A DNA stretch of 26,302 bases from a virus. Position numbers and translations under genes: made by a program. Below the pieces are notes generated by a model. It ran no database searches. It had not been told where the DNA came from and saw only the letters and a program-made list of their open reading frames with translations. Below, one piece after another: positions 1-24,345 of this stretch (within the stretch, counting starts at the first letter, position 1; each line of letters starts with the position of its first letter). The stretch covers positions 1-26,302 of the IMG/VR virus record IMGVR_UViG_3300022818_000014; one strand, given 5' to 3'.

Positions 1-55
1 AAATCAAAATAGCCTATATATAAGCCATTGACATTCGATTGACGGGTGGGGGGTC
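1..55. repeat. 55-bp direct repeat, copy 1
   Basis: Bases 1-55 are identical to 1357-1411 in the same orientation, and the match stops at base 56. It may extend left of the window. It contains two TTGAC motifs and a G-rich run near its 3' end. The copies bound a 1.36-kb segment. Its function is not clear; it could be a terminal or packaging repeat, a recombination site, or an assembly-graph loop. Confidence 0.9.
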
Positions 56-7315: not shown

Positions 7316-7711
7316 ATGAGCGATTACGCATATTCAGCGGTCAAAGGTGTCAAAGAATCCTTTGATTTAGCTAGTAAAGCTTCTATCCTCGAATATAAAG
7401 ATTCAAGAATCTTTAATTTCGAGCAAACCCAAGAATGGACTGAAATTTTCAATTCCACAGAAGGTTTGACAGGAGCTAAAGAATTGGCAGATGCAGAAAC
7501 TCCTCCTACTCTTTCTGAAGAGGAAGGATACCAAGTTTCTCTGTCAAACAAAAGATTCGGTGGAGCTATTGAAATCACCGAGACCGACAAAATGAAAGCG
7601 GGAGATAGCACAACTATGATTGATAAATTCCTCGAAAGACAAAGAAATGACCTGATTCAAGACAACAGGAATCTTTTCTTGAGGAAACTGCAAACCAGAA
7701 TTTCTTGTTAG
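7316..7711 (+). CDS. Major capsid protein, N-terminal part (gene interrupted by inversion)
   Basis: The first 122 residues (7316-7682) look like a normal HK97-fold capsid N-terminus: an N-terminal helical arm, then EEEGYQVSLSNKRFGG, EITETDKMKAGD and a helix ERQRNDLIQDNRNLF. At base 7682 the frame enters a segment that reads sensibly only on the other strand, and the + frame ends after ten unrelated residues at 7711. The missing middle lies inverted at 7683-8074 and the C-terminus resumes at 8076-8237. As shown, the + strand cannot make a full capsid protein. The start ATG has an A-rich leader without a Shine-Dalgarno. Confidence 0.85.
   Translation: MSDYAYSAVKGVKESFDLASKASILEYKDSRIFNFEQTQEWTEIFNSTEGLTGAKELADAETPPTLSEEEGYQVSLSNKRFGGAIEITETDKMKAGDSTTMIDKFLERQRNDLIQDNRNLFLRKLQTRISC
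7667..7682 (+). repeat. 16-bp inverted repeat, left arm, in capsid gene
   Basis: AGGAATCTTTTCTTGA is the exact reverse complement of 8075-8090. The arms sit at the points where capsid coding switches strand, so recombination or template switching between them explains the inversion of the 392 bp in between. Confidence 0.9.
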
Positions 7712-8074
7712 CAGCAGTGATATAAGGAGTTTCGATAAGAGTATATTCACCCTCATAGATGTTTATATCAGCAACAGAGGTAGGAGTCATTCCGTGCATA
7801 CCAAAAAGCTTTTTGGCTTCTCGGGCGGCATCAGAACCTTTCTTCACGATAATCGTGTCGAAAGTGATAGGAAGAGGTTTTCCGTTAGCATCAACAAATG
7901 CACCACCGTAATCTTCCAAATCGTCAATAGCGTCTTGTCCGAAGACAGCCGTTCCTGAGTTAACGAAAGTATTTCCTGTTGATTTATAGACGTGAGTACC
8001 GCAAAGGGCAATACCGTCTGGGGCTAGGTAATAAGTTCCAGCAAAAGCATCATTGAGCATCAAAAAGATGTTCG
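7683..8074 (-). pseudogene. Major capsid protein, middle segment, inverted
   Basis: Read on the minus strand from 8074 down, this gives about 130 residues of capsid-like sequence: NDAFAGTYYLAPDGIALCG, a YGGAFVDANGKPLPITFDT stretch, IIVKKGSDAAREAKKLFG, PTSVADINIYEGEY and ETPYITAANKKFWFAV. An open frame spans 8078-7614, but only bases 8074-7683 look like capsid. Flipping it back between the 16-bp repeats joins it in frame to the N-terminal part (RNLFLTNIFLMLNDAFAG). On the other side the join to the C-terminal part is off by one nucleotide, compatible with one extra G in GAGGAAAC next to the left repeat. No minus-strand promoter was found. Confidence 0.85.
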
Positions 8075-8090
8075 TCAAGAAAAGATTCCT
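8075..8090 (-). repeat. 16-bp inverted repeat, right arm, in capsid gene
   Basis: TCAAGAAAAGATTCCT, the perfect reverse complement of 7667-7682. Beyond the arms similarity continues only imperfectly (GGAAAC against CGAAC). No recombinase gene lies nearby. Confidence 0.9.
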
Positions 8091-8237
8091 TTGTATGTTG
8101 GTATTTCAAAAATGCCTTCTATGAATGAACCGATTGTTCAGAATAACGAAGCTGTTCGCAGCAACGTTACTGGATATTGGAAACAAGGTATCCGTTGTTT
8201 GCCTTTGGGCTTCTACGGTTCCCAGGGTTCTGCCTAA
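8076..8237 (+). pseudogene. Major capsid protein, C-terminal part
   Basis: An open + frame of 53 codons ending at TAA 8235-8237: it includes PLYVGISKMPSMNEPIVQNN, then EAVRSNVTGYWKQGIR and a Gly/Ser tail, the typical capsid P-loop and C-terminus. It has no start codon of its own that would make a useful protein; an internal ATG occurs at 8111. With the inverted segment restored and one base removed, the three parts give a protein of about 306 aa, a normal HK97-type capsid length. Confidence 0.82.
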
Positions 8238-8340: not shown

Positions 8341-8586
8341 ATGTATACAAAAAAAATGATAACTACTGGTGGTAGTTATTGGGTAAAAAAATCTGATGGA
8401 ACATTAGTTGAGGTTATAGATGAAAATGGATACTGGGTTGGACCAGACATTACCTCTACTTCCCCATCTTCTTCTGGAAGCTCTTCAGTTTCTACATCTG
8501 CTTCTGAAAGCCCATCAAGTTCAGTATCAAGTTCTTCGAGCGGTTCGGTATCTAGTTCAGTTTCTTCTAGCCCTTCAGCTAGTTAA
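8341..8586 (+). CDS. Serine-rich head-region protein A
   Basis: 81 aa in two parts. Residues 1-36 form a small beta-type domain (GGSYWVKKSDGTLVEVIDEN then GYWVG). Residues 37-81 are a low-complexity tail in which every second residue is serine; the others are S, T, V, P, A, G or E; it ends SSSPSAS. It is the first gene after the capsid hairpins, so a surface protein such as a head fibre or decoration is plausible. The tail resembles the (Ser-X)n repeats of O-glycosylated serine-rich adhesins. It is a tandem paralogue of the next gene. No signal peptide. Confidence 0.75.
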   Translation: MYTKKMITTGGSYWVKKSDGTLVEVIDENGYWVGPDITSTSPSSSGSSSVSTSASESPSSSVSSSSSGSVSSSVSSSPSAS

Positions 8587-8604: not shown

Positions 8605-9018
8605 ATGACCCACAAATATAAGGTGGTAGCTGATAGTTATTGGGTAGAAGAACCGAACTCAAGAAAGATGAGAAAAGTAATTGATGAAAATGCACGTTGG
8701 TGTGGACGTAGAATAGTTTCTACCTCCGTCAGTTCATCTGCTTCAGAGTCTATTTCTACTTCGAGTTCTATATCAGAATCTCGCAGTTCTTCAGTTTCTA
8801 CCTCGGCCTCAAGTTCTCTATCAAGAAGTTCTTCGATTTCAACAAGTGCATCTGGTTCTATTTCGAGTTCAGTCTCGAGTAGCATCTCTGCATCTGTATC
8901 TCCAAGTACTTCAGTATCGAGTTCAAGAAGTTCTTCGGTATCTGCTTCATCTTCGATATCAGATTCTGGGAGTTCTTCTCCGAGTTCTTCGGTATCAAGT
9001 TCTCCTTCAGCTAGTTAA
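8605..9018 (+). CDS. Serine-rich head-region protein B
   Basis: 137 aa, paralogue of the preceding protein: its N-terminus (DSYWVEEPNSRKMRKVIDEN, then ARWCG) aligns with SYWVKK..VIDENGYWVG. The serine-rich tail from residue 39 is about twice as long and ends in the same SSSPSAS. The variable positions include R, D and E as well as I, V, T, A and G. The DNA ends of both genes share CTTCAGCTAGTTAA. Likely a virion surface protein and possible substrate for the encoded glycosyltransferases. The starting ATG follows a short AT-rich leader. Confidence 0.75.
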   Translation: MTHKYKVVADSYWVEEPNSRKMRKVIDENARWCGRRIVSTSVSSSASESISTSSSISESRSSSVSTSASSSLSRSSSISTSASGSISSSVSSSISASVSPSTSVSSSRSSSVSASSSISDSGSSSPSSSVSSSPSAS

Positions 9019-11157: not shown

Positions 11158-11985
11158 ATGCGACTTTCGGTAATTATTCCAAGCTATAAAGATGAATTAT
11201 TGAGAAAGACTGTAGATAGTTTATTGGAAAATTCAGGGATTGGTAGTGAATTGGAAATTATAGTTGTGATGGACGGCTGGTGGATTAACCCACCCTTAAA
11301 ACCCGACAAACGAGTTAAGATTATCCATCTTACGGCTAATCGTGGTATGAGAGGAGCTATCAACGCTGGGGTGTCTATCGCACAAGGTGAATACATTATG
11401 CGGATGGACGAACACCAAATGGTTGGTCCAGATTACGATAGAATCCTCATTGATACTTGGGAAAAACACGGAATAGCAGATAATTGCATTGTAACTCCCA
11501 GAAGATACCAATTGGACACCGAACAATGGAAGATAATGGATATTCCACCCATAGACTACGACAGAATGATTATCCAGGAATCTCGTCAGAAGTTTAGTGG
11601 ATTAGAAAGTCGTGGAACAGCCAAGACTCGTGCCAATATAATGATAGATGAAACCTTTGGTATGCAGGGTTCTTGCTGGATAATGAAAAAATCTCATTGG
11701 GATAAAGTAATAGTGGAACTTGACGATGTGAACTATGGACCCTTATACACTGACTCAATAGAGATGCTCTTTAAAACTTGGAAGGTTGGAGGAAAGTTGA
11801 TGGTTAATAAAAATACCTGGCACGCCCATCGTCATAGAGACTTTAAACGCAGTCATAATGATGGAAGTCCAGAAAATCCATCTCGCAAGGAAGAGGCATT
11901 TGCTTACTCCCTCAAAACTTGGGGCAGCTACTTTCACGAGATAGATGGTAAGAAAATAAATGTATGGCCTCCGATATCACAATAA
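11158..11985 (+). CDS. GT2 glycosyltransferase, polypeptide GalNAc-transferase-like
   Basis: 275 aa, GT-A fold. MRLSVIIPSYKDE opens the nucleotide-sugar fold; Asp39 lies in VVMDGWW; the metal-binding motif is D84-E-H86 (DxH) in MRMDEHQMVG rather than the usual DxD. The C-terminal part GSCWIM..., SIEMLFKTWKVGGKLMVNKN and a W-H-A-H-R-H segment match in order the acceptor-side motifs of polypeptide GalNAc-transferases (GT27). These enzymes add sugar to Ser/Thr of proteins, which would fit the serine-rich virion proteins here. The same architecture recurs in the gene at 15455. The donor sugar cannot be read from sequence. Overlaps the next gene by 22 bp. Confidence 0.8.
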   Translation: MRLSVIIPSYKDELLRKTVDSLLENSGIGSELEIIVVMDGWWINPPLKPDKRVKIIHLTANRGMRGAINAGVSIAQGEYIMRMDEHQMVGPDYDRILIDTWEKHGIADNCIVTPRRYQLDTEQWKIMDIPPIDYDRMIIQESRQKFSGLESRGTAKTRANIMIDETFGMQGSCWIMKKSHWDKVIVELDDVNYGPLYTDSIEMLFKTWKVGGKLMVNKNTWHAHRHRDFKRSHNDGSPENPSRKEEAFAYSLKTWGSYFHEIDGKKINVWPPISQ

Positions 11986-12665
11986 TTCTGTTGACTAATA
12001 ATCGTCTACCAATCGCCTGGCAGAAATTTCATAAAGAACAATTACTGAAATCTGCTGGAGACATACCTATTATATCAGTCTCTCAAAAAACAATGGACTT
12101 GGGAACTAACCTAATCCAAGACCAACCACCTTCAAAACCAAATATCTTTTATCAGTTAATGAGAGGGATGAGATTAGTTAAGACGAAGTATGTAGCAGTT
12201 TGTGAGGATGACACGCTATACAGCCCAGACCACTTTACTTTTCGCCCTCCAGAAGATTCTTTCGCATATAATAAACACCGTTGGAGTTTATATTCCTGGA
12301 ATCCAATATATCATTTAAAAAATTGGATTAAGACTGGAGCAGTTCTGATTGCTCCCACAAAGTTAGCTTTAACCTTACTATCAGAACGCTTTACAAAATA
12401 TCCAATGGGTGGAGAGATGCCACTAGGGATGTGTGGAGAACTAGGAGTCTACGAGAAAGAATTAGGACTGGAAGTAAGAAAAGTTATTACCTTTAGTTCA
12501 CAAAACCCAGTTATCCAATTAGACACAGACTACTTTACAAAAATAAACGAAACCAAGGAGACTGTCGAAAGACGACATAAAAAATCTCTTGGAGAAATAA
12601 AAGCTCTATCGGTTCCATACTGGGGTGAAAGTAAAAATTTAGTTAGATATTTCAATGAGGAATGA
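11964..12665 (+). CDS. GT-A-like glycosyltransferase, copy 1 of a duplicated pair
   Basis: 233 aa. Opens with ITIILLTNNRLPIAWQKFH and has an acidic metal-type motif E81-D82-D83 in YVAVCEDDTLYSPDHF, as in GT-A transferases. Paralogue of 13655-14344 (shared KTKYxAVxEDDTLYxxDHF, RWSL(Y/F)SWxPIY, GELG). Function: probably sugar transfer to a glycan begun by another enzyme; donor and acceptor unknown. Its TGA stop overlaps the next start region (ATG 12655), showing tight coupling. Not clearly a member of a named GT family from sequence alone. Confidence 0.72.
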   Translation: MASDITIILLTNNRLPIAWQKFHKEQLLKSAGDIPIISVSQKTMDLGTNLIQDQPPSKPNIFYQLMRGMRLVKTKYVAVCEDDTLYSPDHFTFRPPEDSFAYNKHRWSLYSWNPIYHLKNWIKTGAVLIAPTKLALTLLSERFTKYPMGGEMPLGMCGELGVYEKELGLEVRKVITFSSQNPVIQLDTDYFTKINETKETVERRHKKSLGEIKALSVPYWGESKNLVRYFNEE

Positions 12666-13137
12666 ATATAAAAATTTCAGACCAGAGTTTGCCTCTCACT
12701 ATCCAATTTTAGTAAAAGCAATCCAGTCTACTACTGGACCAGTAATGGAGCTGGGGACAGGTATGTTCTCAACTCCACTTCTTCACTGGTTATGTTTAGG
12801 GAGAAAGTTAGTCAGTTGCGAGAGTCATCCCGAGTACATAGAATTTGCCAAACAATACGAAACATTATTTCATAAAGTTATTAAAATTGATAACTGGCTG
12901 AAATTACAACTAGAAAAATATAGTGTAGTTTTTATAGACCACACTCCCACACCCAGGAAACGAGGAGATGACGCAATAAGATTCACAGACGCAGAACTAG
13001 TAGTCCTACACGATACAGGAAGACATGAAAGTAAATATGGATACGAAAAAGTCTTTCCACTTTTTAAATACAAATACGAAAAAAACAACACTACGGTTTT
13101 AAGTAATTCTATCGATGTAAGTAAATGGATAATATAA
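12655..13137 (+). CDS. SAM-dependent methyltransferase-like, copy 1
   Basis: 160 aa, Rossmann-type. Motif I is MELGTGMFSTPLLHWL (Glu32 to Gly36), the next acidic residue is Glu56 in SCESHPEYIEFA, and VVFIDHTPTPRKRGDDAI forms a later strand-loop. It is a paralogue of the adjacent 13125-13658 gene. The motif I is ELGTG, a relaxed version, so SAM binding is likely but the substrate is not known; glycan or sugar O-methylation would fit the neighbouring transferases. Overlaps both neighbours. Confidence 0.68.
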   Translation: MRNEYKNFRPEFASHYPILVKAIQSTTGPVMELGTGMFSTPLLHWLCLGRKLVSCESHPEYIEFAKQYETLFHKVIKIDNWLKLQLEKYSVVFIDHTPTPRKRGDDAIRFTDAELVVLHDTGRHESKYGYEKVFPLFKYKYEKNNTTVLSNSIDVSKWII

Positions 13138-13658
13138 AAGAAGCAGAAAAAACAGGATACGAACCACTTACTGAAGGATGGAACCTAGACTTCGGATGGT
13201 CAACCCATCTTCCAATGTTAATTAAAACAGTCTTACATTCAGATAAACCAGTTATAGAATTTGGTGCGGGGATTTATTCAACTCCCATACTACATTGGTT
13301 GTGTGAAGAAAGAGGAATTGAACTTATCACTTATGAGAATGACCCGATATGCTATAACTTCTGCAAAGACTATGCTTCTAAAAACCACAAAGTTATTTTT
13401 ATAAAAGATTGGGATGAAATCCCACTCGATAAACAATACGGAGTTGTCCTAATAGACCATGTTCCCTTAAAAAGACGAGGTGTGGATGCAATTAAGTTTA
13501 AGGACAATGCTGATTATATCGTTCTCCATGATACGGGTATTCCTCGTAAGTTCGGATATCACAAAGTATGGGAACATTTTAAATACAGACACGATTGGAA
13601 AAAGTTTCATCCATTTACTTCAGTTGTAAGTAATAAAAACTTAGACTTCTTAAAATGA
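13125..13658 (+). CDS. SAM-dependent methyltransferase-like, copy 2
   Basis: 177 aa, paralogue of the preceding gene: VIEFGAGIYSTPILHWL corresponds to VMELGTGMFSTPLLHWL, and VVLIDHVPLKRRGVDAIKF to VVFIDHTPTPRKRGDDAIRF. Motif I is EFGAG (45-49), the second acidic site Glu71 lies in ITYENDPICY. The N-terminus is about 15 residues longer. It sits back to back with its twin, followed by the second GT, and its TGA stop overlaps the next ATG. Expected cytoplasmic enzyme, substrate unknown. Confidence 0.68.
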   Translation: MDNIKEAEKTGYEPLTEGWNLDFGWSTHLPMLIKTVLHSDKPVIEFGAGIYSTPILHWLCEERGIELITYENDPICYNFCKDYASKNHKVIFIKDWDEIPLDKQYGVVLIDHVPLKRRGVDAIKFKDNADYIVLHDTGIPRKFGYHKVWEHFKYRHDWKKFHPFTSVVSNKNLDFLK

Positions 13659-14344
13659 GTGAAACAACGATAATATATTTAACCCAAAACTTACTTACAG
13701 ATGGGTGGATGGATTATCAGAAAAAAGTTCTTTTAGATTCTATTAGTGAGGATACTCCAATTATAGTTATTTCAAGAAAACCAACAATCGTCAGAAATAA
13801 AAATGATATAAATATAATTCAAACAGAACCATCAAGTGCGTCAAATGTTTATTGGCAAATGCTTAAGGCGGTTAAATTAGCAAAGACAAAATACATTGCA
13901 GTCGCAGAAGACGACACGCTTTATTTCAGAGACCACTTCAATTTTATTCCCAAGAGAGAGGACACATTTTATTATAACTGTAGTCGATGGTCATTATTTT
14001 CCTGGTCTCCAATATACTCCTGGAGAGATAGAAAAACAAATTGTTGCTTAGTGGCTAACCGAGAATTAGTTCTTGAAGCACTAGAAGAAAGATTCGCTAA
14101 ATATCCCAATGGTACTCCTCCAAACGCAACGGGAGAACTTGGTAGGTCAAGAACAGATAGATTACTCGGACTTACTAAAAGAAAAGAAGCATATTTTTAT
14201 ACTAATAATCCCATCATTCAGATTGACCATGAATTTGGTTTAGACGATAGGGCTAAAAGACATCGTAAGAACTGGGGAAGTTTGAGAGCGTATTCAATCC
14301 CAACATGGGGACCAGGTAGTGAAATTTTAAAACATTTTAATTAA
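13655..14344 (+). CDS. GT-A-like glycosyltransferase, copy 2 of a duplicated pair
   Basis: 229 aa, homologous to 11964-12665. The motif E85-D86-D87 lies in KTKYIAVAEDDTLYFRDHF, followed by RWSLFSWSPIYSW and GELGRSRTDR. The order GT, MT, MT, GT mirrors the copies around the centre of the block. The two transferases are diverged, so they probably act on different sugars or positions. Starts at an ATGA overlap and is followed immediately by a methyltransferase at 14345. Confidence 0.72.
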   Translation: MSETTIIYLTQNLLTDGWMDYQKKVLLDSISEDTPIIVISRKPTIVRNKNDINIIQTEPSSASNVYWQMLKAVKLAKTKYIAVAEDDTLYFRDHFNFIPKREDTFYYNCSRWSLFSWSPIYSWRDRKTNCCLVANRELVLEALEERFAKYPNGTPPNATGELGRSRTDRLLGLTKRKEAYFYTNNPIIQIDHEFGLDDRAKRHRKNWGSLRAYSIPTWGPGSEILKHFN

Positions 14345-14881
14345 ATGGAAAAAGAATTTACGAAATATTCTACGCATCACGATTACCATTGGAAAATGTA
14401 TCAGGATTTTAATACGAAGTACCATCGCCACGCTGACCGAGTTAAAGAATGGATTAAAGAAGAATCAGTTTTAGATATAGGTTGTGGAGACGGAAAGATA
14501 ACTTCTATGTTAAACGCCACGGGGATTGATAACGATGCAGAGGGAATTAAATTAGCTCAGGAACATGGGGTCAACGCTTTCCTAGGAGATGCCTATAAAC
14601 TTCCTTTCGGAGCAGAAACATTTGAATCAGTTTTCATTGGAGATGTTTTGGAACACATGGAACGACCTTTACAAATACTTAAAGAAGCTTACAGGGTTTG
14701 CCGAAAATACTTATATGTCGCAGTTCCTATTCCAGGGATGCAAAAAGACCCGTTTCATATAAACGAGCCTAATGCACAAGAACTTAAACTTTTAGTTGAA
14801 ACTGCTGGATTTAAACTTGAAGGAGAAATTTTAGAAGTCAGACAGGATAAGAGGTATTATGCAAAATTTCTCAAGATTTAA
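14345..14881 (+). CDS. Class I SAM methyltransferase (type 11-like)
   Basis: 178 aa with the classical motif I VLDIGCGDG (42-50), motif II region ATGIDNDAEGIKLA, acidic GDAYKLPFGAETFE and SVFIGDVLEHMERP, a normal Methyltransf_11 architecture. It is unlike the two neighbouring methyltransferases and better conserved. Substrate: possibly a sugar, given the flanking glycosyltransferases. It closes the + strand block, directly after the GT (1-nt spacing); its TAA stop overlaps the stop of the convergent minus-strand gene at 14878. Confidence 0.8.
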   Translation: MEKEFTKYSTHHDYHWKMYQDFNTKYHRHADRVKEWIKEESVLDIGCGDGKITSMLNATGIDNDAEGIKLAQEHGVNAFLGDAYKLPFGAETFESVFIGDVLEHMERPLQILKEAYRVCRKYLYVAVPIPGMQKDPFHINEPNAQELKLLVETAGFKLEGEILEVRQDKRYYAKFLKI

Positions 14882-15117
14882 AAAACCAGATAATCGTTTT
14901 CTACCACGTCACCTTTAGAAAGTATCCAAGTATGGTCTTTTCCATCTCTAAAGATATGAAGGAAATCTCCTTCAAAATGTCCGTACTCTGACTCTGGCCA
15001 AGCCTCACGCTGTATTCTTTTATTAGAAACCGCTTCTTGGATAGCCTCTCCAAATGTTAGTAGTTTTTCTACCTCTTCAACTGGCAGGGGTGAAGAAGAT
15101 ACTTCTGCTTCTTGCAT
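14878..15117 (-). CDS. Tad2-like (DUF2829) protein, putative anti-Thoeris sponge
   Basis: 79 aa. After a short acidic N-terminus, residues 20-42 read LTFGEAIQEAVSNKRIQREA, the FGEAI...G/N-K..-R..W pattern of the DUF2829/Tad2 family, followed by FLHIFRDGKDHTWILSKGDV and ENDYLVF, where the family usually has (S/G)D..A.DW. Tad2 proteins bind the signalling nucleotide made by Thoeris defence and so protect the phage. It lies in a minus-strand cassette inside the glycosylation island, 5 nt after the upstream gene, with no start signal of its own. Tad2 binding needs a check because the terminal Asp-Trp is here Asp-Tyr. Confidence 0.6.
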   Translation of the reverse strand: MQEAEVSSSPLPVEEVEKLLTFGEAIQEAVSNKRIQREAWPESEYGHFEGDFLHIFRDGKDHTWILSKGDVVENDYLVF

Positions 15118-15122
15118 AGTTT

Positions 15123-15425
15123 TTATTTTAAATAATTAATTACAAAACTTCCAGTCTGCGGCTCCACCCAAATTCCGACCCACGCATGAACTACATTGTC
15201 CTGTTTAGCTGTTTTTGGGCTCTCGCCAATTTCTATCTCAGATTGTATCCCATATTTAGAAAGTTCTCTCACCAAATCTTCAGAAAAATTTTTACAGACA
15301 TAGTTATCCGTATATTTCCTATTAGCTATCTTCCTAATGGAATATTCAAGTGGTATGTATTTACCCAAGAAAAATAGTTGAGTAATTACCAATATCAACA
15401 AAATACCCGAAATTATTTTATACAT
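15123..15425 (-). CDS. Membrane-anchored Cys/His protein, transglutaminase-like
   Basis: 100 aa. An N-terminal hydrophobic segment (residues 4-22, KIISGILLILVITQLFFLG) is followed by a domain with Cys44 in NYVCKNFSEDLVRELSKYGI and His80 in VVHAWVGIWVEPQTG, plus Glu88. A Cys near the N-terminus, a later H-A-W and an E-P-Q strand are the arrangement of small transglutaminase-like cysteine enzymes, so a Cys-His(-Glu) site is possible. The membrane segment would place it outside or as a membrane protein. It starts at the predicted transcription start, 7 nt after a TATAAT box, and is the first gene of the minus-strand pair. Confidence 0.55.
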   Translation of the reverse strand: MYKIISGILLILVITQLFFLGKYIPLEYSIRKIANRKYTDNYVCKNFSEDLVRELSKYGIQSEIEIGESPKTAKQDNVVHAWVGIWVEPQTGSFVINYLK

Positions 15426-15432
15426 ATAACTA

Positions 15433-15461
15433 ATTATATCACAGATTTTAATTTATGTCAA
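15433..15461 (-). promoter_or_regulatory. Minus-strand extended -10 promoter, leaderless
   Basis: On the minus strand: TTGACA (15461-15456), 17-nt spacer ending in ATCTGTGA, TATAAT (15438-15433), then 7 bases to the ATG at 15425. It is almost identical to the promoter at 1609-1637 and drives the two minus-strand genes. It overlaps the start region of the + strand GT at 15455, so the divergent units share DNA. Confidence 0.85.
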
Positions 15462-16447
15462 GGAAAAAATACACATTGAGTATTATCATCGCATCGAGAA
15501 ATGAAGAATTTTTAGCAAAAACTGTTGAAAATATAATAGAAAATAAGAATGATGATACCGAAATTATAGTTGGATTGGATGAGAAATGGGCTAAGCCACC
15601 ATTAGTAGACCACCCAGATGTCACGATTTATTATGTACCAGTATCATTGGGTCAAAGAGCTATGTGTAATCAGTTGTGTCGACTTTCTAAAGCCAAGTAT
15701 ATTATGAAGCTTGATGGTCATTGCACGGTTGATAAAGATTTTGATAAGAAAATGATAGAGGGGTTCAAGGAGACTGGCGACAATGTGATTGCAATTCCAA
15801 GTATGTATAATCTACACGCATTTTCATGGAAATGCAAGAAGTGTGGAATGAAATGGTACCAGGGACCGACACCTACTCATTGTATGAGCGGAGAACATGT
15901 CGAGAACCCTAACTGTGATAACACAAGACACTTTGAAAAGAAAATAGTTTTTAAACCCAGATGGAATAGAAGAACAGAATTTTGGAATTTTGATAATGAT
16001 TTGCATTTTCAATACGACAATGGAAGAAAAAAAAGACCAGAATCACAAGGTCAGATAGTAGATACTATGAGTTGTATTGGAGCTTGTTGGATGGTTACCC
16101 GTGATAAATATTGGGAACTTAATTTAAATGATGAAACGTTTGGTTCATGGGGGCAGATGGGCACAGAATTAAGTTGTAAAATACACTTAACTGGAGGAAG
16201 AATGGTTGTTAATAAAAATACATATTTTTCGCATCTTTTTAGAACACAAAAAGACTTCGGATTTCCCTACCCTCAAAGTAATACGCAAGTTAATAACGCA
16301 AGAGAAAAGAGTAAGGAGTTATTTATATATAAAGGATTTAAAGGACAGATTTATCCAATTTCCTGGATGATAGAAAAATATTGGCCAGTTAGTAATTGGA
16401 CTCAAAAAGATTTAGACGAGATTAAGAAAGTTGAATTTAAACCTTAA
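15455..16447 (+). CDS. GT2 glycosyltransferase with zinc ribbon, GalNAc-transferase-like
   Basis: 330 aa. LSIIIASRNEE opens the GT-A fold; D87-G-H89 in MKLDGHCTVD is a DxH metal motif. The C-terminal half has IGACWMVTRDKYWELN, FGSWGQMGTELSCKIHLTGG and VVNKNTYFSHLFR, parallel to the WGGEN..E.SFR.W.CGG..H...H region of polypeptide GalNAc-transferases. A zinc ribbon, with cysteines at 127, 130, 143 and 154, is inserted between. It is a longer relative of the gene at 11158. A role in attaching sugar to Ser/Thr of the serine-rich virion proteins is inferred. The start could also be TTG at 15476, just before SIII; I keep ATG 15455. Confidence 0.8.
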   Translation: MSRKKYTLSIIIASRNEEFLAKTVENIIENKNDDTEIIVGLDEKWAKPPLVDHPDVTIYYVPVSLGQRAMCNQLCRLSKAKYIMKLDGHCTVDKDFDKKMIEGFKETGDNVIAIPSMYNLHAFSWKCKKCGMKWYQGPTPTHCMSGEHVENPNCDNTRHFEKKIVFKPRWNRRTEFWNFDNDLHFQYDNGRKKRPESQGQIVDTMSCIGACWMVTRDKYWELNLNDETFGSWGQMGTELSCKIHLTGGRMVVNKNTYFSHLFRTQKDFGFPYPQSNTQVNNAREKSKELFIYKGFKGQIYPISWMIEKYWPVSNWTQKDLDEIKKVEFKP

Positions 16448-16916
16448 ATTTATCTGGAGAAAGATTATGAACTCGTCTATATTTTTCTCTAGCAAAGGTT
16501 GCATCACAAATCTTACACGGTCTTTTCCCAAATTTGTTTTTAGTAGATGGAAGTGGATGTCCATTCTTACAATGAGTTTTCCTGGCATTAATGGAACTTA
16601 CTGAATTTCCCCTAAGCATATTAAATCTATGAGATACAAGTCTCAAATGTGATGGATTAACACACGCCTTATTCTCGCATATATGGTCAAGTATGGGAAT
16701 ATCCCTATTAGCAACTTTAGGATTAGGTATTGGTCCATATATCCACGCATACATAATTCTATAAACTAACGCTTTCGGACCACGAAATCTGACACGACCA
16801 TATCCCTGCCCATTCTTATTACCAATCCAATTCCAACAACTATCCGTAATTTCTATTTTAGAAAATATACGTTCAAGGATTCCATTATCTAAATTTTCCA
16901 CAACTAACATATCCAT
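16437..16916 (-). CDS. HNH endonuclease, free-standing, homing type
   Basis: 159 aa. An N-terminal NUMOD-like or recognition segment (SCWNWIGNKNGQGYGRVRF) is followed by the HNH core: LDHICENKACVNPSHLRLVS with Asp77-His78, Asn87 and His90, and cysteines 80/85 for a structural zinc; then NMLRGNS and a C-terminal zinc site (C116, H120, C134, C137). Such HNH_3 enzymes are self-spreading genes that cut related genomes. It lies on the minus strand between the GT and the fibre genes and overlaps the GT end by 11 bp. It has its own promoter and leaderless start, independent of the phage operon. Confidence 0.9.
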   Translation of the reverse strand: MDMLVVENLDNGILERIFSKIEITDSCWNWIGNKNGQGYGRVRFRGPKALVYRIMYAWIYGPIPNPKVANRDIPILDHICENKACVNPSHLRLVSHRFNMLRGNSVSSINARKTHCKNGHPLPSTKNKFGKRPCKICDATFAREKYRRVHNLSPDKFKV

Positions 16917-16985: not shown

Positions 16986-18476
16986 ATGACAGATACAGGA
17001 GCAATATCACCAGGAACAGTAATAGATGGTTTTAACGTACAGTTAATTACAAGTGCTGATGATGGTTATGGACAAACTGGTGGTGGATATGGATTATATT
17101 CAGGAAGTTATACTGTTGTTGGTCAATCATTTGCTGGAAATGGTTCTGTATTAGATAGCGTTAAATTTCTTTTGAATAAGTCTGGTTCTCCAACAGGAAA
17201 CGCAGTCGCTAAAATTTATACTCATTCTGGTACTTTTGGAACTAATTCACTTCCAACAGGTTCTCCATTAGCTACTTCTGATAATCTTGACGTTACTACT
17301 CTTAGTACTTCTCGTTTACTTAAAACATTAACCTTTTCTGGAACAAATAAAATACTTCTTAGTTCAGGAACTAATTATATTGTCGTTTTTGAATTTTCTG
17401 GAGGAGATTCTTCAAATTATGTAAAAATAACCGAGAATTTTGATGGTTCTTGGAGTGGAAATATCTGTTATTACGGAGGTTCTTGGAGTTCTAGTTATTT
17501 AGAAGATTTAATTTTCTATATATATGGTGGAATCGGAACCGTAGCGTGGACTAACCCCGATAACGCTAAGGTGAGTGATAATGTGTATGCGACAGCAAGT
17601 GGTGCTAAACCGTGGACTTCTCATTATCTCAAAGCAACCAATTTTGGTTTTTCTATTCCAAGTGGTGCAATAATAAATGGTATTTTAGTTGAGATAGAGG
17701 AAAAAGGGTCCACCCCGAGTCCGGCTCACGAAAGTGCAATAAAAATAGTAAAAGCAGACGGAACAATCGGGACAACAAATAAATCAACAGGAGCAACTTT
17801 ACCAAGTTCTGATACTTATATTTCTTACGGTTCTGACTCTGATTTATGGGATGAAACTTGGGATGATACTAAAATAAATGACATAGATTTTGGAGTTGTT
17901 TTTTCCATTGCTGGTAATGGTGGAACTGGTGGGTATGTTGACCACATCCGCATCACGGTTTATTACACGGAAACAGGTTCAACTTCAACCTCCATCTCTA
18001 GTTCTATATCTAGTTCCATTTCAACATCGGTTAGCAGTTCTCTAAGCTCTAGTATCTCAGCCTCTCCTTCTGCAGGATATCAAGACTACACTAAAGGAGA
18101 TTATGTTTCCCTACCCTCTAATAATACAGACCTAACCAACATTTTTACTGAGCAAGAAATAACCGATGTAGCGACTAAAGATAATGTAAGAGTTTCTCAA
18201 GATGGAACAGGATATGTTTTACATCAATTCAAAGACTTTGTGGGAAACGCCTTAAATATAACTCTGGAATGGGAAGGACAAACCAATGAGGATTGTTCAT
18301 TATCTCCAGTTCTTTTACAGATATATAACCAGATTACTACCAACTGGGATACGGTTGATACGGACAGCTCTAGTCCAGCTGATACCGACTTTACTTTAAC
18401 TGGAACTGTTAATTCGACAAACTATCAAGACGCAAGTTCTGTTATAAGTTGTCGGGTTTATCAGCAACTTGTCTAA
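16986..18476 (+). CDS. Putative tail fibre / host-binding protein with serine-rich linker
   Basis: 496 aa with separate beta-rich domains: residues 1-180, jelly-roll/CBM-like (SGSYTVVGQSFAGNGSVLDS); about 180-330, a second beta domain with NPDNAKVSDNVYATAS and ILVEIEE; then a serine-rich stretch of about 33 residues (..SSSISSSISTSVSSSLSSS..) ending in SASPSA; then a C-terminal beta domain to the end. This build suggests a surface protein that binds host glycans, with the serine-rich segment as spacer and possible glycan carrier. It follows the HNH gene on the + strand and opens the tail region. No signal peptide. Confidence 0.6.
   Translation: MTDTGAISPGTVIDGFNVQLITSADDGYGQTGGGYGLYSGSYTVVGQSFAGNGSVLDSVKFLLNKSGSPTGNAVAKIYTHSGTFGTNSLPTGSPLATSDNLDVTTLSTSRLLKTLTFSGTNKILLSSGTNYIVVFEFSGGDSSNYVKITENFDGSWSGNICYYGGSWSSSYLEDLIFYIYGGIGTVAWTNPDNAKVSDNVYATASGAKPWTSHYLKATNFGFSIPSGAIINGILVEIEEKGSTPSPAHESAIKIVKADGTIGTTNKSTGATLPSSDTYISYGSDSDLWDETWDDTKINDIDFGVVFSIAGNGGTGGYVDHIRITVYYTETGSTSTSISSSISSSISTSVSSSLSSSISASPSAGYQDYTKGDYVSLPSNNTDLTNIFTEQEITDVATKDNVRVSQDGTGYVLHQFKDFVGNALNITLEWEGQTNEDCSLSPVLLQIYNQITTNWDTVDTDSSSPADTDFTLTGTVNSTNYQDASSVISCRVYQQLV
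17977..18074 (+). repeat. Serine-rich (X-Ser)n module in the fibre
   Basis: Encodes a tract with Ser at nearly every second position and I, V, L, T, A, P at the others, ending in SASPSA. The coding DNA uses mixed Ser codons, so there is little exact DNA repetition. Confidence 0.75.
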
Positions 18477-20503: not shown

Positions 20504-22864
20504 ATGGCCTCATATATACTACAAGAAGATGGATTCAAAATACTGCTTGAAGATGGAAGTGGTAGTCTCTTGTTGGAACCAGTTTCTTCTCCAAGTTCTT
20601 CTATATCAGTCTCTATATCCTCTAGCCCTAGCATATCTACTAGTATTTCTGCAAGTCCTTCTCCCTCTACAAGTATAAGCAGTTCTCCCAGTATTTCTAC
20701 AAGTATCAGTAGCTCTTTGTCAACTTCAATAAGCACTTCTCCTTCGATATCTACTTCTATATCGAGCAGCATATCCGCAAGTCCTTCGATTAGTACCTCT
20801 ATTTCAGAATCTCCGAGTATTAGCACATCTATTTCCACTTCTCCAAGTTCTAGTATTTCTACTTCCCTAAGTTCGTCTGTATCCTCCTCTCCGTCTATAT
20901 CCTCTAGTATCTCATCTTCTCCGAGCCCAACGGGAAGTAGTATTTCTACATCACCATCATCGAGTATCTCTAGTTCAGTTTCTACTAGTATCTCTAGCAG
21001 TATTTCACAGAGTCCTTCGATTTCAACAAGTATTTCTAGCTCTATTTCAAGCTCTGTATCTACGTCAATTTCTAGTTCTCCATCCATATCTATTAGTGCG
21101 AGTCCTAGTATTTCTACATCTATAAGTTCTTCGATAAGTTCATCGATAAGTAGTTCGGTTTCTGCATCACCTTCCACTTCTATCTCTTCATCCCCATCGC
21201 CAAGCACTTCGATATCTGTATCTCCGTCTTCTAGTATCTCTACGAGTATATCGTCTTCTATATCGACTTCGGTTAGTGCTAGTCCGTCAATCTCGACATC
21301 TATATCATCCAGTCCGTCTATAAGTACGTCTATATCAACTTCTGTCTCTACATCTCCGAGTACTTCTATTTCAACATCTTTATCAAGTTCTGTTTCGTCT
21401 TCTCCATCAATTAGTACCTCTCTTTCTAGTTCGGTATCCTCAAGTCCTTCAATATCAATCAGTTCATCTCCATCTTCTTCAATCTCATCTTCACCGTCTC
21501 CCAGTACATCAATATCAGCCTCACCCTCAACTAGTCCATCGACAAGCATCTCTGCCTCACCGTCTATTTCCATAAGTGCTTCTCCAAGTATTTCTACTTC
21601 TATTAGTAGTTCTATCAGTTCTAGTATTTCGACATCTGTTTCATCTTCGCCATCTATTTCAATATCATCTAGCCCCAGTATATCCACTTCTATTAGTTCC
21701 AGTATTTCGGAATCTCCTAGCATATCAATATCGAGTTCAATATCTTCAAGTATATCCGCAAGCCCTTCTGTTAGTTCTAGCCCAAGTAGTTCAATATCAA
21801 GTTCTATTTCTAGTTCTATTTCTGCTAGTCCCTCAGCACCTATTACACTTATTTTACAAACAGATTACTGGAATGTAATCATAATAGATACTTACTCACC
21901 TTCAGCGTCTATCTCAACTTCTCCGAGTATATCTATATCTGCTTCGCCTTCAGTATCTATTTCTAGTAGTGTTTCAACATCTCTTTCTTCTTCGATTTCA
22001 AGTTCTATTAGTTCTTCGCCATCTATTAGTTCGTCTATCAGTTCATCTCCCTCGATTTCCACATCCATATCCAGTTCAAAAAGTTCTTCACCGAGTAGTT
22101 CAGTCTCTAGTAGCATTTCAACTTCAATATCCGCATCCCCGAGTATTTCTACAAGCATATCAGTAAGTCCTAGTAGTTCTATATCTTCTTCTATCTCAAG
22201 TAGTCCTTCGATTTCTTCAAGTATCTCGACTTCCATTTCCACATCTCCGAGTATCTCGATATCTAGTTCTTTGTCTTCTTCTGTTTCAAGTTCACCATCG
22301 CCAAGTACCTCAATTTCTTCAAGTATCTCGAAATCACCAAGTCTAAGCCCATCTATTTCAGTAAGTTCAAGCCCATCATTATCACCATCTCTTTCGATAA
22401 GCACCTCAATTTCAACAAGTCCGTCTTCGTCAATTTCTTTTTCAATTAGTTCTAGTATATCTAGTTCTCCATCTATATCCACCAGTATTTCCAGTTCTAT
22501 CAGTTCTTCAATAAGCGTTTCCCCATCAAGTTCAATATCCTCATCAATATCAGCCAGTCCCTCTCCTAGTTCTTCAATTTCCTCCTCTCCAAGTACCTCA
22601 CCAAGTACGAGTATTTCCAGTAGTCCCTCCACTTCAATATCTTCCTCTCCCTCACCGACAGCTGAAGACCACATTTTTAACTACGAAAAACCAAACCAAC
22701 CCCATTACGTTAATCACGGTAAACCCAATCAACCAATTTATATCTACCTTAATAAACCAGGACAACCTGTTTACACTAACCACGCTAAACCAACTATCGT
22801 AATTTACATCAACCACACCAAACCTAATCAACCAACTTATAGGAATATTAAACGCCCAATATAA
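20504..22864 (+). CDS. 786-aa serine-rich repeat virion protein (mucin-like)
   Basis: Three parts. The N-terminus MASYILQEDGFKILLEDGSG, then SLLLEP, is the short LLEDGSG module common in phage proteins. Residues 28 to about 720 form two long (X-Ser)n tracts, nearly perfect alternation of Ser with I, V, L, P, T, S, A and few others, split by ITLILQTDYWNVIIIDT. The C-terminus has five 11-residue repeats of the KPNQPxYxNHx type. There is no signal peptide or sortase motif, so it should be a virion component. The tracts strongly recall serine-rich repeat adhesins and mucin domains and are the best candidate acceptor for the encoded O-glycosyltransferases. All six Ser codons are mixed, which lowers DNA repetition. 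Long antisense frames here are composition artefacts. Confidence 0.8.
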   Translation: MASYILQEDGFKILLEDGSGSLLLEPVSSPSSSISVSISSSPSISTSISASPSPSTSISSSPSISTSISSSLSTSISTSPSISTSISSSISASPSISTSISESPSISTSISTSPSSSISTSLSSSVSSSPSISSSISSSPSPTGSSISTSPSSSISSSVSTSISSSISQSPSISTSISSSISSSVSTSISSSPSISISASPSISTSISSSISSSISSSVSASPSTSISSSPSPSTSISVSPSSSISTSISSSISTSVSASPSISTSISSSPSISTSISTSVSTSPSTSISTSLSSSVSSSPSISTSLSSSVSSSPSISISSSPSSSISSSPSPSTSISASPSTSPSTSISASPSISISASPSISTSISSSISSSISTSVSSSPSISISSSPSISTSISSSISESPSISISSSISSSISASPSVSSSPSSSISSSISSSISASPSAPITLILQTDYWNVIIIDTYSPSASISTSPSISISASPSVSISSSVSTSLSSSISSSISSSPSISSSISSSPSISTSISSSKSSSPSSSVSSSISTSISASPSISTSISVSPSSSISSSISSSPSISSSISTSISTSPSISISSSLSSSVSSSPSPSTSISSSISKSPSLSPSISVSSSPSLSPSLSISTSISTSPSSSISFSISSSISSSPSISTSISSSISSSISVSPSSSISSSISASPSPSSSISSSPSTSPSTSISSSPSTSISSSPSPTAEDHIFNYEKPNQPHYVNHGKPNQPIYIYLNKPGQPVYTNHAKPTIVIYINHTKPNQPTYRNIKRPI
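20585..21838 (+). repeat. First long (X-Ser)n tract
   Basis: Encodes about 418 residues with Ser at every second position over long runs; phase breaks are rare (PTG). X is mainly I, V, L, P, T, S, A. It ends in SASPSA, the same signature that ends the tracts in three other genes. Not an exact DNA repeat, but rich in recurring short words such as TCTAGTATTTCT. Confidence 0.85.
21896..22654 (+). repeat. Second long (X-Ser)n tract
   Basis: About 250 residues after the non-repetitive spacer at 21839-21895, starting SPSASISTS. Same alternating pattern, with rare K, F or other residues at X, ending SSPSPTAEDH before the C-terminal 11-residue repeats. Confidence 0.85.
22688..22852 (+). repeat. Five 33-bp (11-aa) C-terminal repeats
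   Basis: Five consecutive units encode KPNQPHYVNHG, KPNQPIYIYLN, KPGQPVYTNHA, KPTIVIYINHT and KPNQPTYRNIK. Conserved K-P at the start and Tyr at position 7; the fourth unit has diverged. Likely a rod-like or docking domain; family unknown. Confidence 0.85.
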
Positions 22865-24345
22865 TGAAACTATACGGAAATTTTTTCAAAGGCATCGGAT
22901 TGTCACGCAGAGTGCAATCAGGCTTCGATGACCTTACAAATTGTGATGTCTGGTCAGAACTCGGTGCTTTGAAGTGCCAAAAAGCTTTAACTAAAAAATC
23001 AGGTTCAGTTATTACTGCTGGATGTTATCGAGCTGTCGCTCCAGATGGAACGACTTACTTTTTCTCTAAAACTGATGGAATGATTTGGAAACGTTCCGTA
23101 GCTGGAGTTTATTCCTATGTGCGTGTAAACGCTGTGGGTTCTTCAAGTTCTTCACTATCTTCCTCACCATCGGCGACCCGTTCTGCATCTTCTAGTATTT
23201 CTATAAGTTCTTCTCCATCCACATCAGTTTCTTCATCTCTATCAGTGTCCGCCTCAGTTTCAACTTCAGGGTCTACCTCAATTTCTAGTTCCATTTCAGC
23301 TTCAATTTCTCCCTCACCATCAAGTGGTGGGGATACAGGTGGTCATAAAGGAGCTAATTATTACAATGGATGTATTTTTTATACTACCGATACCTATTTA
23401 GGAAGATATACTATCGCTACAGATTCTTGGAATGATTTCTTCCAACTCTTAACTCCAGGAGTGCCTCACGCTATCGAACAGTTTGACTTAATGATGTATA
23501 TTACTAATTCTAAAGACATTGCTCAGTTAGACGATGCTGGAGTATTTTCTTCTTCTGGTTTAGACTTACCAACTGAACATCGAACTACCGCCTTAATTCC
23601 ATACGGAGATGACCTTTTAACATTGTCTAATCCTGGAGATTATATTAACGACTCAGCTATCTACCGATGGAACACCTATGCAGATTCTTGGACTGTTAAA
23701 GACGCTATTAAAGGAACGGACGCTTATGCCTTCTTAGACGCTGATAATAATGTATTTGTTATCTGTCTAAGTGGAGCTATTTATTATTACAATGGTTCTA
23801 AATTGGATATTTTCTCTTACATTCGTAATCCATATCCAACCGAAGGACATCAACTTACTACTAACTTCCAAGGAGTACCTCTGGTAGCCAATGGTGGAAA
23901 GATTTATTCTCTCTACAGAAAGACTCGTGATTTAGACGTAGCTTTAGTGGGAGAATACACTTGTTCTGCTGGTGAAAGTGCTACTATCGAATCTATTGTA
24001 GCTTGTGGCGAACAACTCCTGGTAAACTGGACTAATAATGGAGATGCTGGAGTAGATGAGATTGATACTAATTATTTTGCTAACGCCAGAGTTATTACTC
24101 CGAGATTTGAAAGAGGTTCTGTGGTTAAGGTTGATTACGAAGATTTAAATGGTGCTGAAATTGGAATTTACTCTCGTAAAGATAAGGAATCCAATTGGAC
24201 TTCACACGAAACTTTAGATGACACGGATAAACATTATGTTCGCACAGTTGATGATATGATTCACGAATCAGGTGGACAAGTCCTCGTTACGATTACTCCT
24301 TCCGGAACAGAGTCTCCGATTATTAATGATATAAAAATAGAATGA
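22864..24345 (+). CDS. Beta-rich tail protein with serine-rich insert (nozzle-like?)
   Basis: 493 aa. The first 90 residues (MKLYGNFFKGIGLSRRVQSG, then FDDLTNCDVW) and the rest after 155 look like one repeated-strand protein, with recurrent beta-propeller-like units (GCIFYTTDTYLGRYTIATDS, ALIPYGDDLLTL, SGAIYYYNGSKLDIFSY). Tail nozzle proteins of podoviruses have such propellers, but the assignment is by style and position only. Residues 93-154 are a serine-rich (X-Ser)n insert that interrupts the fold at a probable surface loop. Starts at ATGA-type overlap with the previous gene and ends by overlapping the next ATG. Confidence 0.6.
   Translation: MKLYGNFFKGIGLSRRVQSGFDDLTNCDVWSELGALKCQKALTKKSGSVITAGCYRAVAPDGTTYFFSKTDGMIWKRSVAGVYSYVRVNAVGSSSSSLSSSPSATRSASSSISISSSPSTSVSSSLSVSASVSTSGSTSISSSISASISPSPSSGGDTGGHKGANYYNGCIFYTTDTYLGRYTIATDSWNDFFQLLTPGVPHAIEQFDLMMYITNSKDIAQLDDAGVFSSSGLDLPTEHRTTALIPYGDDLLTLSNPGDYINDSAIYRWNTYADSWTVKDAIKGTDAYAFLDADNNVFVICLSGAIYYYNGSKLDIFSYIRNPYPTEGHQLTTNFQGVPLVANGGKIYSLYRKTRDLDVALVGEYTCSAGESATIESIVACGEQLLVNWTNNGDAGVDEIDTNYFANARVITPRFERGSVVKVDYEDLNGAEIGIYSRKDKESNWTSHETLDDTDKHYVRTVDDMIHESGGQVLVTITPSGTESPIINDIKIE
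23140..23325 (+). repeat. Serine-rich insert in the tail protein
   Basis: Encodes about 62 residues (SSSSSLSSSPSATRSASSSI and on to SASISPSPSS) placed between two parts of a beta-rich domain. Two phases of alternation are joined by ATRS. Confidence 0.8.

Follow-up and report, generated by a model that had tools for sequence, protein, structure and literature searches.

The major capsid gene in a 26,302-nt stretch of viral DNA (hereafter the window) changes strand twice, and its middle segment lies inverted between two perfect 16-nt inverted repeats. The question raised by this locus is whether the inversion is a programmed switch, a defective variant of the virus or an error made while the DNA was copied or assembled. 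The window is incomplete and comprises positions 1-26,302 of IMG/VR virus record IMGVR_UViG_3300022818_000014, from an uncultured bacterial virus. It was compared with 40 IMG/VR contigs bearing a related capsid gene, and the nearest intact relative (L003/L011; 14.4-kb contig IMGVR_UViG_3300014208_000353) served as the reference for alignments.

The original prediction placed the capsid sequence on the plus strand up to 7682, on the minus strand from 8074 to 7683 and again on the plus strand from 8076. This layout was confirmed, as the relative aligned in three consecutive pieces in the order plus, minus, plus: residues 1-125 at 7316-7690 on the plus strand (82% identity), residues 103-256 at 8135-7674 on the minus strand (74% identity), and residues 255-307 at 8076-8234 on the plus strand (83% identity). 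The perfect 16-bp inverted repeats predicted at the strand changes were also found. The two arms, 7667-7682 and 8075-8090, are exact reverse complements, fall exactly on both strand changes, and form the longest perfect inverted repeat of the window with arms within 1 kb. When the window was subjected to 200 dinucleotide shuffles under the same 1-kb limit, a perfect inverted repeat of at least 16 nt arose anywhere in only two of them. The features of the locus are listed in the table.

Table. Features of the split capsid gene (positions in the window)
Feature	Positions	Strand	Remarks
Capsid N-terminal part, residues 1-122, including the native left arm	7316..7682	+	82% identity to L011 residues 1-125; same start MSDYAY...
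Left arm AGGAATCTTTTCTTGA, native coding RNLFL, putative left switch point	7667..7682	+	In frame; relatives RNLFL / RNYFL / KNLFL
Inverted capsid middle, 130 codons	7683..8074	-	81.5% (106/130) identity to L003; no stops; dN 0.132 / dS 1.05
Right arm TCAAGAAAAGATTCCT, exact reverse complement of the left arm	8075..8090	-	QEKIP vs REKNP in L003
Capsid C-terminal part, frame differs from that of the flipped middle	8076..8237	+	83% identity to L011 residues 255-307

The capsid pieces of the window gave one weak PHROG match and matched no Pfam family. Since the capsid family has no sequence match in the PDB, the fold was compared instead; the phage collection likewise held no match to the capsid middle. 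The HK97 fold consists of an N-arm, an E-loop, a spine helix, and A and P domains. The AlphaFold2 model of the intact relative L003 (pLDDT 86) matched HK97, encapsulin and phage capsids in the PDB with E-values down to 2.8e-9, and capsid proteins in a viral library with E-values down to 5e-16. These matches confirm the earlier identification of the gene as a major capsid gene; the modelled fold makes its product the HK97-fold major capsid protein of a tailed phage. Upstream lies a large terminase gene (PF17289). The gene itself resembles those of Mu gpT-like and HK97-fold capsids through this fold and through the 26 relatives, 24 of which matched PHROG 4523 (major head and protease protein) and three the Mu gpT family PF10124. 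Unlike them, the gene in the window is divided between both strands and stays out of frame after flipping, and its family is a diverged one of environmental contigs. The family is also encoded in L057 (JAAXWV010000137.1), a Candidatus Roizmanbacteria MAG contig, which hints at CPR hosts for the wider family and does not establish the host of the window phage. One relative, L055, has a further incomplete copy of the family, covering profile positions 136-223 and 292-308, at the start of its locus and upstream of the full copy.

Related phages carrying the intact gene, a comparison proposed at the outset, showed what the normal arrangement is. The capsid was a single uninterrupted full-length plus-strand ORF in 38 of the 40 related contigs and was cut by contig ends in the other two; the inverted state was found in none of the 40. 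The longest inverted repeat inside the capsid genes of the relatives was 7-13 nt. The gene order is kept in the relatives, and all other genes of the window that have relatives are intact and collinear.

Several further features of the window were recorded. Ser-rich repeat proteins (S-I-S, S-P-S, S-T-S), the largest of 786 aa, are encoded at 8341-8586, 8605-9018, 16986-18476, 20504-22864 and 22864-24345, and for the ORFs at 8341 and 8605, the N-terminal 37-39 residues are conserved in L011. A cluster of sugar- and methyl-transfer genes (11158-16447), partly conserved in L012, lies inside the structural region; it includes a family 2 glycosyltransferase gene at 11158 with a similar gene at 15455, a methyltransferase gene at 14345, and the duplicated pairs 11964/13655 and 12655/13125. 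The HNH endonuclease gene at 16437-16916 on the minus strand probably encodes a free-standing homing endonuclease.

The flipping of positions 7683-8074 was expected to restore the N-terminal junction in frame, and it did so, the joined sequence reading RNLFL-T-NIF (RNLFL to T-NIFLMLND) as in the relatives. However, the C-terminal junction, and hence the gene as a whole, was not restored. The flipped middle runs out of frame into ...FWFAVSSRKDSFVCWYFKNAFYE* and then stops, with loss of the conserved C-terminus, whereas the true C-terminus, QEKIPLYVGISKMPSMNEP..., sits in a different frame. The distance from FWFAV to the next conserved Leu codon is 19 nt in the flipped window versus 21 nt in L003. 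Because of this frame break between the flipped middle and the C-terminus, the segment is not the exact inverse of an intact gene. Judged from the sequence, a precise reversible inversion cannot leave both the loss of frame and the 2-nt shortening.

These results bear on the view that a reversible DNA inversion, of the inverton or invertase type, turns capsid production on and off. The perfect 16-nt inverted repeat located precisely at both ends of the segment speaks for such a switch, but the frameshift at the right junction with a stop before the conserved C-terminus, and the relatives lacking both the repeat and the inverted state, speak against it. The search for an invertase gene elsewhere in the genome, which the original prediction had suggested, gave none either in the window or among 13 related records, of which several span 40-49 kb: the resolvase/invertase profile PF00239 was matched in 0 of these 14 records, and the tyrosine recombinase profile PF00589 in one, the contig of L028. 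Promoter-like sites in the region were at the level of shuffles (two versus 2.2), and with no terminator present, an invertible promoter in the segment was rejected. A programmed switch is therefore contradicted by the unrestored ORF, the homogenised-looking arms described below, the search of the incomplete window, which yielded no recombinase, and the relatives without inversion or repeat, and we regard it as very improbable. Equally hard to credit is a version in which the phage reversibly inverts the middle of its capsid gene to switch particle formation and repairs the imprecise ends by a further step. The tail-fibre G segment of Mu is an invertase-driven phage switch, and it is similar in that a stretch of DNA bounded by inverted repeats, within a region of structural genes, is turned round. 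The window differs in that no invertase was found in it, the flip gives no functional gene, the relatives lack the repeats, and the protein affected is a capsid protein rather than a host-range module.

The origin of the two arms was examined by comparison with the relatives. The left arm encodes RNLFL in frame, as native sequence would. At the position of the Ile encoded in the right arm, the residue is Asn in 19 of the 38 readable relatives, Ser in 16, Thr in two and Ile in one. Because 37 of 38 relatives carry Asn, Ser or Thr there, the right arm looks overwritten by left-arm sequence, as judged from relatives at 80-84% protein identity, and it appears to have replaced a native right site that would have been 18 nt long. 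The reverse complement of the left arm of the window fitted the L003 capsid gene best at the homologous right site (14/16; next best 11/16), which would place a near-repeat at hand as a priming site, and the left and right sites probably already resembled each other, by chance, when the event occurred. At the left site of L003, the sequence differs from the left arm of the window. Given this difference and the absence of an inverted repeat longer than 13 nt in any related capsid gene, the perfect repeat is best read as a product of the event and not as a pre-existing recombination site. Exact 33-34-nt probes for both capsid flanks, run against the viral contig collection, found no copy of this virus with a native right site, although such a search may miss near-identical records.

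Taken together, the capsid gene most probably owes its rearrangement to a polymerase that switched templates twice in succession at a near-perfect inverted repeat present by chance. After copying the left arm, the growing strand would jump to the opposite strand at the similar right site, copy the middle backwards and then the left arm a second time, and jump back just downstream of the right site. Such a path would leave the spacer inverted and both arms as identical left-arm copies; the native right site would be lost, the length altered by 2 nt and the capsid gene dead. Two-hop switching between non-identical inverted repeats is known to invert the spacer and homogenise the arms (PMC8604942), and the inverted spacer bounded by inverted repeats that characterises template-switch inversion is present here. 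The inversion in the record is best explained by a known error process. The geometry, the loss of frame and the intact genes of the relatives are observed, and both the hops and their setting, in the tube or in the cell, are what we infer. A hairpin at each junction alone was rejected (folding z-scores of -0.31 and 0.98).

The substitution pattern against L003 indicates the age of the event. The dN and dS of the inverted middle (table) are close to those of the C-terminal part (dN 0.148, dS 1.07) and the neighbouring gene (dN 0.169, dS 1.05); the N-terminal part has a dN of 0.133 with saturated dS. As constraint on the inverted part matches that on its flanks and no stop interrupts it, the event must be very young or have arisen in the tube. 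An old decayed prophage gene was rejected, since the inverted part is under purifying selection of the same strength as the flanks and the neighbouring gene.

Two of the other options named in the original prediction, which made no choice among its readings, fit these data well: an inversion made during amplification and a defective variant. Either setting explains the sequence. DNA amplification or library preparation is mildly favoured over a rare defective genome, by reasoning, because a genome without a capsid is not expected to dominate a population and the rest of the contig is undamaged. A defective variant carried by living virus genomes, with the inversion formed in vivo by template switching during phage replication or microhomology repair, is a less likely reading. 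Template switches at short inverted repeats are documented in replicating cells, and phages were the first setting for which they were proposed (PMC8604942); the assembler would also have needed real DNA spanning the junctions. Against this, a genome of this kind cannot build a shell by itself, and the window showed no second capsid copy; to appear as the consensus, it would need to be more abundant than the intact form; and the capsid gene shows no decay beyond the event while everything else is intact. A pure assembly mis-join, made without any chimeric DNA molecule, is less likely still. The assembly is imperfect at the left end, where the contig starts with an exact 55-nt repeat, the end mark of a de Bruijn graph with k=55. 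However, the 16-nt repeat is shorter than common assembler k-mers (21 and more), so that such a false join needs junction-spanning reads, and an assembly error would not place a copy of the left arm at the right site. The 55-nt direct repeat itself (window positions 1-55 and 1357-1411) is followed by different sequence after each copy; as 55 nt is a common assembler k-mer length, a branch in the graph probably marks the start of the contig, and a loop, a tandem copy or an alternative path may account for positions 1-1356.

Read as a chimera, the locus is mainly a warning that inversions at short perfect repeats in contigs of uncultured viruses can mimic phase-variation switches. Two cheap tests discriminate between them: does the flip bring back the ORF, and do both arms derive from one parental arm? 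If the event truly occurred in vivo, it would add a long-spacer case from a phage to the examples of template-switch mutagenesis.

Hops of the type proposed here also occur in multiple displacement amplification (MDA): inversions made up 85% of the 475 mapped chimeras, the joined sites usually lay less than 10 kb from each other, and complementarity of 2-21 nt served for priming (PMC1855051). The window is similar to these in that its segments lie close together and the complementarity falls within this range. In contrast, the usual MDA chimera has one junction and an intervening deletion, whereas the window has two linked junctions and keeps nearly all of the sequence, which counts against the proposed double switch. 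The template-switch inversions known in yeast coding genes are also far shorter (2-5 bp substitutions), and this too counts against it. In yeast REG2, a 5-bp arm became a perfect 16-bp repeat as the spacer was inverted (PMC8604942). The window differs from REG2 in its spacer of 392 nt versus a few nt, in the destruction of the protein and in the additional 2-nt length change; similarly to REG2, however, it has an inverted spacer between short inverted repeats, an imperfect arm apparently made perfect, of 16 bp in both cases, and an altered coding gene.
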